Below, in pieces: positions 7,220-63,311 of a stretch of 64,000 nt of DNA. A model generated the notes under the pieces. It was not told where the DNA came from. It saw only the letters and a program-made list of their open reading frames with translations, and did not search any database. Each line of letters begins with the position of its first letter. The stretch's first letter is position 1. The translations under genes and the position numbers were made by a program. Source of the DNA: Salinicola socius. GTDB taxonomy: Bacteria > Pseudomonadota > Gammaproteobacteria > Pseudomonadales > Halomonadaceae. The stretch spans positions 62,001 through 126,000 of the forward strand of contig NZ_MSDO01000007.1 in the NCBI RefSeq assembly GCF_001937195.1, read 5' to 3'.

Positions 7220-7434
7220 TTCTTCAGATCCTACTAAGCTCTGTCTGAAAAATCGGCGAGCGATGGCAAGACCGGGGCGCGTAGCTAAGGCAAAAATTGA
7301 CGAAAAAAGGACCGGGCTGGCGCTCCAGTTTACGAGGTGTAAATGAGCATTTTGATCGGGCTGGCGCACCAGTCAATTTTTAACGCCGTATGGGCGAGCG
7401 CAGGCATTTTTCAGACAGAGCGTAGGATCAAGAA
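7220..7434 (-). repeat. Structured dispersed repeat, copy A (long hairpin form)
   Basis: Largest of three related elements. The outer stem has three blocks: TTCTT/AAGAA, GATCCTAC/GTAGGATC and a perfect 16-bp arm at 7238-7253 with 7406-7421, about 29 paired bases with only two small bulges. Inside are AAAAATTGAC/GTCAATTTTT (7292-7301 with 7372-7381) and, on the minus strand, the conserved core TCAAAATGCTCATTTAC with its TTTAC/GTAAA hairpin. Only this copy has two 19-nt direct repeats (7310-7328 and 7354-7372, 17 of 19 identical), each holding a CTGG/CCAG mini-hairpin on either side of the core. It lies in the roughly 740-base gap between the pao and ABC-importer operons, where no credible gene is seen. 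Confidence 0.85.
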
Positions 7435-7732: not shown

Positions 7733-8863
7733 TCATATAGCGTTGACTCGACTACCCTCACATTCAACGCCGGCCAGCGGGTGGCGTTGCAGACGGTCCA
7801 GCGATTGCCCATTGCTCTTGAAAAGATGCGCGCAGGAGGGATCGAAGCTGAAGCGGACCCGCTCGTGCACGCGATGCACGATATTCCCGTCCGCGACCAG
7901 GATCCACTCTTTACCCAGATGATCGAGATACAGCGAGGTGACACCGCCCAGGCGCTCGGTGAGCACGATGTCTCCTTCCAGGGAGCCGTGGTCGTCCAGC
8001 TTGAGGTGTTCAGGCCGTATGCCCAGCGTCAGCGTATCGCCAACGTTGATGTCATCGCCCACCACCGGTATTCGGCAGGCGCCCCCGGGCAGCGCCAGAT
8101 CGACCCCGGTCGGGCCGACGCCGTGCACTTCGACATCCAGGAAGTTCATCTTCGGCGAGCCGATGAATCCAGCCACGAAGCGGTTGCGTGGATGATGGTA
8201 AAGCTCCATCGGCGACCCAATCTGTTCTACCGAGCCGCCCTGCAGTACGACGATCTTATCGGCCATCGTCATGGCCTCGACCTGATCGTGGGTGACATAG
8301 ATCATTGTCGCGTTGAGCTCATGGTGGAGTCGCGTCAGCTCTATTCGCATCTGTACACGCAGCGCCGCATCGAGATTGGACAGGGGCTCGTCGAACAGGA
8401 AAATACTCGGATTGCGCACGATGGCCCGACCGATCGCAACGCGTTGGCGCTGCCCCCCGGATAGCGCACGCGGCTTCCGGTCCAGCAATTCCTCGAGCTG
8501 CAGAATGCGCGCGGCGGCCCGGATCTTCTCACGACGCTCCGCTCTGGGCACTTTGGCCAGGCGCAGGCTAAACCCCATATTGTCCTCGACACTCATATGC
8601 GGGTAGAGCGCATAACTCTGGAACACCATCGCCAGCCCGCGCTCGGCAGGGCCGATCTCGTTGACCCGCTGGCCGTTGATCTTGATATCGCCGCTGGAGG
8701 CACTCTCCAGCCCGGCGATCGTGCGCAGCAGAGTCGACTTGCCGCAACCGGAAGGACCGACGAAGACGACGAACTCGCGGTCCTTGACCTCGAGATCGAT
8801 GCCCTTGAGGACCCGAGTGCTACCGAAGTCCTTGATGATATTGTCGAGCTGTAGCGTTGCCAT
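7733..8863 (-). CDS. Sugar/polyol ABC transporter ATP-binding protein (UgpC/MalK family)
   Basis: Cytosolic ATPase of a CUT1 carbohydrate importer, 376 residues. Walker A is GPSGCGKST at 36-44, the signature is LSGGQRQR near 135, Walker B is IFLFDEPLSNLD and the switch His is in VTHDQ. The C-terminal TOBE/OB-fold regulatory region typical of MalK/UgpC/SmoK is present. The ATG giving MATLQL was chosen; a GTG four codons upstream is possible. The last 15 residues after SLDRLQR are longer than usual for the family, which may be natural drift. It is the distal gene of the operon, after the SDR gene. Confidence 0.92.
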   Translation of the reverse strand: MATLQLDNIIKDFGSTRVLKGIDLEVKDREFVVFVGPSGCGKSTLLRTIAGLESASSGDIKINGQRVNEIGPAERGLAMVFQSYALYPHMSVEDNMGFSLRLAKVPRAERREKIRAAARILQLEELLDRKPRALSGGQRQRVAIGRAIVRNPSIFLFDEPLSNLDAALRVQMRIELTRLHHELNATMIYVTHDQVEAMTMADKIVVLQGGSVEQIGSPMELYHHPRNRFVAGFIGSPKMNFLDVEVHGVGPTGVDLALPGGACRIPVVGDDINVGDTLTLGIRPEHLKLDDHGSLEGDIVLTERLGGVTSLYLDHLGKEWILVADGNIVHRVHERVRFSFDPSCAHLFKSNGQSLDRLQRHPLAGVECEGSRVNAI

Positions 8864-22718: not shown

Positions 22719-23558
22719 ATGCCAGCCAGAGCCATCAGCCTCGAGCAACAGCAGCGCCTGATCGAGATTGTGCGCGATGCCGCCAGGACCGAGATCCTGC
22801 CGCGCTTTCGCAATCTCTCCGAGGACGCGATCCGTTCGAAGAGCGCGCCGGACGATCTGGTGACCGACGCCGACCAGGGCGCAGAGCGGATGATGACGGC
22901 GGCGATCCGCGAGCTAATGCCGGAGGCGACGGTGATCGGCGAGGAAGCGGTGGCCGACGGCAGCGCCAATCTCGACGACATCGCCGGCGCCGAGCTGGCG
23001 CTGATCATCGACCCGGTCGATGGCACCTGGAACTTCGCCCGCGGGCTCAATCAGTTCGGGGTGATTCTGGCGGCGACCAGCTTCGGCGAGACGATCTTCG
23101 GCCTGCTCTACGATCCGCTGGCGGACGACTGGATCGTCGCCCGTCACGGCGAAGGCGCCTGGTTCGGCCGCCCCGATGGCACCCAGCGCCAGCTGCAGGT
23201 GTCGGCCACCGACAAGTTCGACGAGATGGTCGGTTCCACCTCGATCCGGCTGTTCGCCAAGCCGCAGCAGTACCAGCTGGCGGCGACCTTCCCCGACTTC
23301 CAGCGCATGATGGCGTTCGGCTGCGCCTGCCACGAATATCGCACCATGGCGTTCGGCTTCGTCGACTTCATGCTCACCGGCAAGCTGATGCCGTGGGATC
23401 ATGCCGCGGGGCTGATGATCCACGCCGAAGCCGGCGGCCATTCGGCGCTGCTGGACGGCACACCCTACCAGCCGACGATCCACCAGGGCACGGTGCTGGC
23501 CGCCAGCTCGCGGGCGCACTGGGAGCAGCTGCGCGAGAAGTTCAGCTTTCTGGGCTAA
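22719..23558 (+). CDS. Inositol monophosphatase family protein
   Basis: Magnesium-dependent phosphatase of the inositol monophosphatase/CysQ superfamily, 279 residues. Metal-site motifs are GEEAV near residue 69, DPVDGTWNF near 92 and WDHAAG near 225. The sequence is not close enough to SuhB or CysQ motifs to name one; candidates are inositol-phosphate, histidinol-phosphate or PAP phosphatase. An AAGAGAGGAG ribosome site precedes the ATG. Its stop codon lies at the edge of a structured repeat, followed by a strong terminator. Confidence 0.88.
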   Translation: MPARAISLEQQQRLIEIVRDAARTEILPRFRNLSEDAIRSKSAPDDLVTDADQGAERMMTAAIRELMPEATVIGEEAVADGSANLDDIAGAELALIIDPVDGTWNFARGLNQFGVILAATSFGETIFGLLYDPLADDWIVARHGEGAWFGRPDGTQRQLQVSATDKFDEMVGSTSIRLFAKPQQYQLAATFPDFQRMMAFGCACHEYRTMAFGFVDFMLTGKLMPWDHAAGLMIHAEAGGHSALLDGTPYQPTIHQGTVLAASSRAHWEQLREKFSFLG

Positions 23559-23689
23559 AAAGTGCCTGCGCTCGCCCATGCGGCGTTAAAAATTGGTTCA
23601 AAATGCTCATTTACACCCCGTAAACTCCGCGTTTTCGCCAATTTTTGCCTTGCCTGGCCTTCGCTCGTCGACTTTTTACGCAGGGCACT
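23557..23689 (+). repeat. Structured dispersed repeat, copy B
   Basis: Copy in the conserved-core orientation, beginning inside the upstream stop codon. Nested pairings are AAAAAGT/ACTTTTT (23557-23563 with 23671-23677) or, alternatively, AGTGCCTGCG with CGCAGGGCACT (23561-23570 with 23679-23689); AAAAATTGG/CCAATTTTT (23588-23596 with 23638-23646); and TTTAC/GTAAA (23610-23614 with 23620-23624) around ACCCC. It shares TGCCTGCGCTCGCCCAT and GGCGTTAAAAATTG with copy A, and the core TCAAAATGCTCATT with both other copies. Confidence 0.85.
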
Positions 23690-63192: not shown

Positions 63193-63311
63193 GAAACTAG
63201 CTGCGTCGCCGGATACGGCGTTAAACACGCCCTCAAAATGCTCATTCATAACCCATGAACTCCGCTTTCTTGGTCGTGTTTGCCTTGTCCCAACTTCCTC
63301 GCTGACGTTTC
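63193..63311 (+). repeat. Structured dispersed repeat, copy C
   Basis: Copy lying between phnJ and the body of phnI, its core strand antisense to the phn genes. Stems: outer GAAAC/GTTTC (63193-63197 with 63307-63311) plus AGC/GCT, middle AAACACG/CGTGTTT (63223-63229 with 63275-63281), inner TTCAT/ATGAA (63245-63249 with 63255-63259) around AACCC. It shares ATACGGCGTTAAA, TCAAAATGCTCATT, AACTCCGC and TTTGCCTTG with the other copies, while both middle and inner stems have changed on both sides. Confidence 0.85.

Follow-up and report, generated by a model that had tools for sequence, protein, structure and literature searches.

A dispersed intergenic repeat that is very probably a non-autonomous MITE, with a structured core found across a bacterial class and ends that vary

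Main finding

The window, i.e., the whole analyzed stretch of 64,000 nucleotides, carries three copies (A, B, and C) of a short repeat. We are confident that copy A is a non-autonomous MITE, and we read its family as a constant, structured core whose ends can be exchanged. A preliminary description of this DNA had left the choice between a MITE and a very stable terminator-like hairpin. The MITE reading is borne out by the many copies, their terminal inverted repeats, a TA duplication revealed by the empty sites of sister copies, and an insertion sequence (IS) with matching ends in relatives. The hairpin is only a by-product of an element that is mobile and multi-copy. An intrinsic terminator, understood as a single fixed hairpin with a T tract downstream of a gene, was likewise rejected for a mobile element in many copies.

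Members of the family insert into YTAR-like sites, where the central TA becomes duplicated. An ISPst8-like transposase supplied in trans would bind the matching ends, cut the element out or copy it, and join it at YTAR. Under selection, the copies that persist would be those outside genes, many of them placed precisely at a TAG or TAA stop codon, which is restored by the element's first base. Decay would proceed through internal deletions that run from the CGCTCG repeat of one arm to that of the other and leave hairpins of ~52 bp. Beyond the genus, a folded core of ~75 bp is kept across the class, and the ends may be replaced to suit other transposases.

Copy A and its boundaries

Three complementary blocks of 5, 8, and 16 bp had been reported to bracket positions 7220–7434, and they are present exactly there (Table 1). 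The 16-bp block is the sole exact inverted repeat of at least 16 bp within 300 bp across the 64-kb window, and no exact inverted repeat of such length and closeness occurred in 20 order-1 Markov sequences. Folded as RNA, 7220–7434 has a predicted energy of -88.7 kcal/mol, with z-scores against shuffles of -6.2 for the plus strand and -5.6 for the minus strand.

The 29-bp terminal repeat made up of these blocks is real, but it is composite and not a single repeat of element ends: the inner ~17 bp are the element's own ends, and the 5- and 8-bp blocks are mostly flank. In an alignment of 30 loci the edge of the repeat reads TA, then (A/C/G)GC(T/A/G)CTGTCTGAAAA, mirrored at the opposite end. The earlier statement that no clear target-site duplication flanks copy A was mistaken, as a bare TA stands at each edge. 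When the element and one TA are taken out in silico, the joined site reads TCCTAC-TA-GGATCA (the inner TA is the retained one), i.e., GATCCTA-C-TAGGATC. Copy A probably landed in a site that was already palindromic, and the outer 8-bp block would be complementary for that reason.

Copy A lies in a gap of 743 bp between two minus-strand genes. It is 245 bp above the start of a gene for a 212-aa 2Fe-2S protein and 308 bp beyond the end of an ABC ATPase gene (both named by reading their translations).

Table 1. Features of copy A, and the two other copies in the window
Feature	Position	Strand	Basis or remark
5-bp block, TTCTT / AAGAA	7220–7224 / 7430–7434
8-bp block, GATCCTAC / GTAGGATC	7227–7234 / 7422–7429
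16-bp block, GCTCTGTCTGAAAAAT / ATTTTTCAGACAGAGC	7238–7253 / 7406–7421
Left flank half of probable pre-existing palindrome GATCCTA-C-TAGGATC	7227–7234		sequence; inference
TA target duplication, left copy	7235–7236		boundary from family alignment; TA rule from empty sites of L002, L016, L025
Element proper (copy A), full-length form with three optional internal modules	7237–7422 (186 bp)	+	family alignment
Left terminal inverted repeat, AGCTCTGTCTGAAAAAT	7237–7253	+
Optional left-arm module, CGGGGCGCGTAGCT	7273–7286	+	alignments; missing from short copies
Conserved core, AAGGCAAAAAT...TTTACGAGGTGTAAATGAGCATTTTGA...ATTTTTAACGCCGTAT, split by two optional modules in copy A	7287–7391	+
Optional core module, ACCGGGCTGGCGCTCCAG	7311–7328	+	alignments
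Second optional core module, ATCGGGCTGGCGCACCAG	7355–7372	+	alignments
Right terminal inverted repeat, reverse complement CGCTCTGTCTGAAAAAT	7406–7422	-
TA target duplication, right copy	7423–7424		family alignment and sister-copy empty sites
Right flank half of probable pre-existing palindrome, plus AAGAA block	7425–7434		sequence
Copy B, ends shortened to TAAAAAGT..ACTTTTTA	about 23556–23678	-	truncated or decayed family member
Copy C, decayed core relic without recognizable ends	about 63198–63302	-	truncated or decayed family member

Dispersed copies and empty sites

A search of the own genome with 7220–7434 gave 49 matching pieces, which were merged to 40 loci. At least five further loci were obtained by a search for the end pattern, so that the total is about 45. 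The repeat is present in all 18 genus genomes searched (2 to 49 pieces each). The copies are dispersed, shorter than ~500 bp, and without a transposase gene, and terminal inverted repeats, 17 bp long in copy A, occur as paired ends in most of 42 copies.

To find empty sites, we queried the genus with the joined flanks of 25 of the 30 fetched copies (all except copy A, L007, L011, L012, and L013). Nine cases, chosen among the matches listed, were read base by base. Clean and exact empty sites were seen for at least three sister copies. The site of L016 is empty in G016 and G004, with a single TA against two in the filled site; that of L002 is empty in G016, again with one TA against two. The site of L025 is empty in G004 and at a paralogous place of the own genome, with one TA (in the filled site the left TA is mutated to CC). 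The TA duplication is thus proved by the empty sites of sister copies. As L002 is 99% identical to copy A over positions 15–206 of the query, the subfamily of these two moved recently.

Other junctions showed decay. In G009 there is a deletion remnant of L004 and a 52-bp remnant of L024 that includes a 49-bp hairpin between its ends; the L024 site is of ambiguous sequence in other genomes. A deletion running from the CGCTCG repeat in one arm to that in the other would fit the hairpin of the L024 remnant. The junctions of L003, L020, L026, and L029 are too diverged for an empty-site reading. The own genome also contains five solo hairpins (L211 to L215) with 47–48 bp between the TAs, which apparently arose by the same kind of deletion at the CGCTCG repeats.

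An empty allele of copy A itself was not found, as no searched relative is syntenic across its site. G005, G006, G015, and G017 match the region only from about 7774–7820 onward, G004, G009, G010, and G016 only from 8907, and G003 and G011 only up to 7001. Likewise, a stem fixed at this site was not seen in distant relatives, none of those searched spanning it.

These data bear on the suggestion that copy A is a regulatory hairpin or terminator that is fixed between two operons and retained because it affects transcription. The very stable fold of copy A speaks for it, as do the covariation of the core across genera, the many copies directly behind stop codons (see below), and one terminator-like pattern inside copy A (7359–7374). 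But a fixed hairpin accounts poorly for about 45 dispersed loci in one genome and for a presence that is polymorphic, with precise empty sites in relatives. Besides, terminator-like patterns number 2 against 0.8 expected, and the copies on stop codons are of mixed orientation (about 7 sense and 5 antisense). We regard this explanation as very improbable; as the origin of the repeat, a regulatory hairpin is ruled out by the dispersed and polymorphic copies.

Two further observations concern individual copies. In L020 (1501–1716) and L220 (506–719), an extra internal palindrome of ~50 bp, CACTGAACAAyGTTCAGAACGTyCGAAGG...GCGAGC, replaces one of the optional modules. A second repeat, GTGTGGTGTCTCACAAATACCATCC...GCGCCTTGCCTG, abuts three copies of the element in the own genome (L011:1691–1800 and the flanks of L007 and L013) and is perhaps another mobile family.

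Placement relative to genes

The placement of copies was studied in 42 two-ended copies. L012, L209, L217, and copy B, each with one end missing, were dropped; L007, L022, and L028, each with one loosely placed end, and L026, with a mutated TA, were retained. Genes were called by a GC3 rule. None of the 42 copies lies inside a predicted gene. In 16 of them the TA forms the first two bases of a stop codon, and the first base of the element restores TAG or TAA (the mutated L026 gives TGA). The control consisted of the 93 YTAR sites of one window, 22 of which are in called genes and eight on stop codons. Compared with these sites, the excess on stop codons has a binomial p of about 2e-7 and the scarcity inside genes a p of about 1e-5. 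Insertion that restores the stop codon shows how elements can gather behind genes, where they may be transcribed, without breaking them.

One copy (L030:1501–1646) separates two predicted genes that converge and whose stop codons would otherwise share a single CTAG; TAG is kept for each gene from its own side of the element.

An IS5-type transposase with matching ends

The preliminary description had pointed to a transposase gene with matching ends as a thing to look for elsewhere in the genome. Such a gene is present in the relatives G014 and G011; in the own genome, a draft of 156 contigs that leaves room for a missed IS, no transposase of the ISPst8 type was found. The IS with the ends of the MITE is 917 bp long in G014 and 918 bp in G011. 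Its DDE transposase is split over two overlapping frames; they meet near GGTAAAAAGGGGGC, which suggests a programmed frameshift. G011 additionally has a decayed copy of 727 bp, where a degenerate IS5-type transposase is flanked by a pair of end sequences at a distance of 731 bp. With the C-terminal part of the transposase as a query, matches were obtained in four of the 18 genus genomes.

The transposase matches Pfam DDE_Tnp_1_2 (4.5e-16) and NCBIfam transpos_IS5_3 (8.5e-27, under the 110-bit cut-off of that model, for the 112-aa part that was scanned). It is 65–73% identical to 20 listed plasmid transposases of IS5, ISPst8, and ISPs1. By these similarities, we assign it to the IS5 family near ISPst8 and ISPs1; ISPst8 presumably belongs to the IS427 group of IS5.

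The ends of the genus IS, TACGCTTTGTCTGAAAAA.../TACGCTCTGTCTGAAAAAT, match those of the MITE over 17–19 bp on both sides. A side-by-side reading (there is no alignment score) confines the likeness to the ends, so that the comparison shows common ends and not a descent of the MITE from the IS of G014 and G011. The ends of ISPst8 and ISPs1, GGTTCTGTACGAAAAGT and GGTTTTGTACGAAAAGT beside TA, match the TACG end type of the MITE family, which is also found on the MITE of Halomonas sp. PA16-9 and on the own-genome copy L210. TCTG is the end type of the genus IS, whose transposase is of the same kind as those of ISPst8 and ISPs1. Unlike the MITE, these two are ~910–920 bp long and have a transposase gene, and no likeness of their interior to the MITE was noticed in the sequences compared. 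An Azotobacter IS5 ends in GGGTTTGTCTGAAAAGTCG, in the same series as the ends of ISPst8 and ISPs1.

TA duplication is typical of IS630. The MITE could accordingly belong to another TA-duplicating transposase family, e.g., an IS630/Tc1-like one, and match IS5-type elements by chance. The match of the genus IS ends on both sides makes this reading most improbable, as does the fact that the ends of ISPst8, ISPs1, and the Azotobacter IS5 fall in the same series.

The core beyond the genus

Sixteen copies (15 of the own genome, one of Halomonas sp. PA16-9) were used for a covariance model, R1. In the order, the model matched 92 of 293 genomes, belonging to 51 of 118 genera (E up to 1e-4); in the class it matched 96 of 369, belonging to 83 of 272 genera (E up to 1e-7). 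Plasmids of Pseudomonas veronii and P. aeruginosa are matched as well. The core can be summarized as CAAGGCAAAAAnnnnGCGAAAAAGCGsAGTTTACnnnnnGTAAATGAGCATTTTGAGCnnnnTTTTTAACGCCGTAT.

The ends differ between elements. Their types include TCTGAAAA, TACGAAAA, CTCTGAATAA, TTTGCATAA, GTTGCAAAA, GTCGCAAAA, TTTCATAA, GTTGAAAAA, GTCCGAAAA, and others. Within each of 25 elements the two ends agree in 14 to 19 of 20 bases. With one element taken per end type (n = 11), the mean pairwise identity is 0.79 for the core, 0.44 for the left end, and 0.45 for the right end. These identities mark the interior as much older than the ends.

Part of the core (L265:301–356) is carried by a plasmid of Candidatus Fukatsuia symbiotica, a member of the Enterobacterales that lives in aphids as a symbiont, and the core may therefore reach beyond free-living lineages. 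Phage records gave no match to the element. Three viral contigs (L520, L536, and L537) contain elements with the MITE core on the left and a different right part (GCCGCGCG..GAAAA...GATAAAT), possibly hybrids with another repeat.

To assess the fold, we selected by hand 24 cores from the fetched loci, mostly one per genome, spanning the end types. RNAalifold on their MAFFT alignment, which carries the structure predicted from itself, gave 23 pairs with 98.4% of cells able to pair and changes on both sides at 13 of the 23 pairs. None of 500 shuffles reached any of the structure measures, and pairing fell to 35–44% when the partners were slid by 1–3 columns. A larger alignment with ends, fitted to the model, gave the same picture of covariation. 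A variable stem of four bases covaries (e.g., TTGA/TCAA, CAGG/CCTG, TGGC/GCCA) next to fixed motifs. The best conserved columns of the core include motifs such as TGAGCATTTTGAG and GCGnAG, in which some positions are unpaired. No match to the IHF consensus was found in the 24 rows.

Quasi-palindrome correction in replication raises palindromy without selection, and covariation of the core might be such an effect at the DNA level rather than a mark of selection on the fold. Folding of both strands of the copy A region fits this explanation, while the conserved unpaired positions of TGAGCATTTTGAG and GCGnAG are left unexplained by correction alone. As a full account we consider it rather unlikely. 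Both processes could act on the core, and the fixed motifs favour some selection.

Exchange or drift of ends

The common view takes MITEs for short-lived, truncated relatives of a single insertion sequence. Here we tentatively favor another possibility, with a confidence that falls just short of even: the core of ~75 bp would be a structured passenger of ancient origin, maintained because its fold and invariant motifs are under selection, and would have spread through Gammaproteobacteria by repeatedly acquiring the ends of different IS. This would be a MITE superfamily defined by its conserved cargo hairpin rather than by the ends of one transposase. It is also conceivable, with a probability that we put at roughly a third, that the ends drifted gradually along with one co-evolving transposase family while the core was constrained, and no exchange took place. 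Such drift would agree with the loose GGCTGT..AAAA pattern that most end types have in common, and with the occurrence of both the TCTG and the TACG type on ISPst8-like IS. Against it, drift would not easily produce the ends GAGCGCTTTGCACGAATTGG (L269), GAGACCTTTGCATAA (L245), and GGAACCTCTGAATAA (L244), and the sub-terminal stem is changed as well in L266–L275. Because only the TCTG and TACG types can be paired with an IS, exchange is only somewhat more probable than drift.

For the end types besides these two, we found no resident IS with matching ends. PF13586 matches occur in five of 12 genomes; an IS whose ends nearly match (TACG against TCCG) is present in G213 alone. A pattern search in G051 and G145 returned many short GAGGCTGTCGCAAAA-ended elements and no recognizable IS. 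Most of the GAGGCTGTCGCAAAA pairs are 100–210 bp apart with apparently varied interiors, which suggests several MITE families sharing one transposase. Viral contigs contain one more IS5-type IS with TACG ends (L468). Two of the other three end patterns gave no pair 600–3000 bp apart in viral contigs, and the pattern CAGGCTGTTGAAAAA gave at least one pair, of 747 bp (L323), with a frame of 211 residues. The pattern TANGCNCTGTCTGAAAA occurs in 25 viral stretches, with a single match in each.

A covarying core in about 130 sampled genera, combined with changing ends, suggests that the hairpin aids its own spread or benefits the hosts. The former could operate, e.g., via a host factor that recognizes the hairpin in transposition. 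Either possibility raises the question of what binds the invariant motifs.

Relation to known elements

The class-wide core is absent from Rfam, and no description of it was found in the open-licence literature that was searched. Rfam gave no match at the gathering score in the window; the matches in L240 and L247 lie outside the element and are due to chance.

ERIC sequences, which are common in E. coli, are palindromic, ~127 bp long, intergenic, and targeted to TA. The present family is like them in these features, and in having short forms and being widespread, as far as the relevant part of a published account goes (PMC10969869). Unlike ERIC, the core has no match in 5,426 E. coli genomes. 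Membership in ERIC was rejected on this genome search, in which the L240 element served as the family member, and not on an alignment with the ERIC consensus.

In excerpts of their description, QMITE1 and QMITE2 of Coxiella resemble the present family in their number of about 50 copies, their hairpin transcripts, and the location of QMITE2 mostly in 3' untranslated regions; they differ in size and in their duplications of 2–3 or 7–11 nt (PMC5896051). The same excerpts restrict QMITE1 to Coxiella, and QMITE2 to Coxiella and some alphaproteobacteria (PMC5896051). REP/REPIN elements with RAYT, compared by description only, are unlike the family in size and ends: a REP is 20–40 bp long with a GTAG or CGTC tag and is accompanied by a RAYT gene.

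Among the described elements, the nearest relative in kind of ends is MITEPsy1 of Pseudomonas syringae, to judge from part of its published description (PMC3189936). MITEPsy1 has IS5-like ends containing TCTGAAAAA, as in the present family, is ascribed to ISPsy2, targets CTAG or YTAA, and has been shown to transpose (PMC3189936). It is unlike the present family in its length of 100 nt with a duplication of 4 nt, and the comparison concerns its ends, not its interior (PMC3189936). In the same part, its authors mention similar sequences in Pseudomonas, Marinobacter, and Klebsiella (PMC3189936), and in these sequences a part of the superfamily may have been glimpsed earlier.
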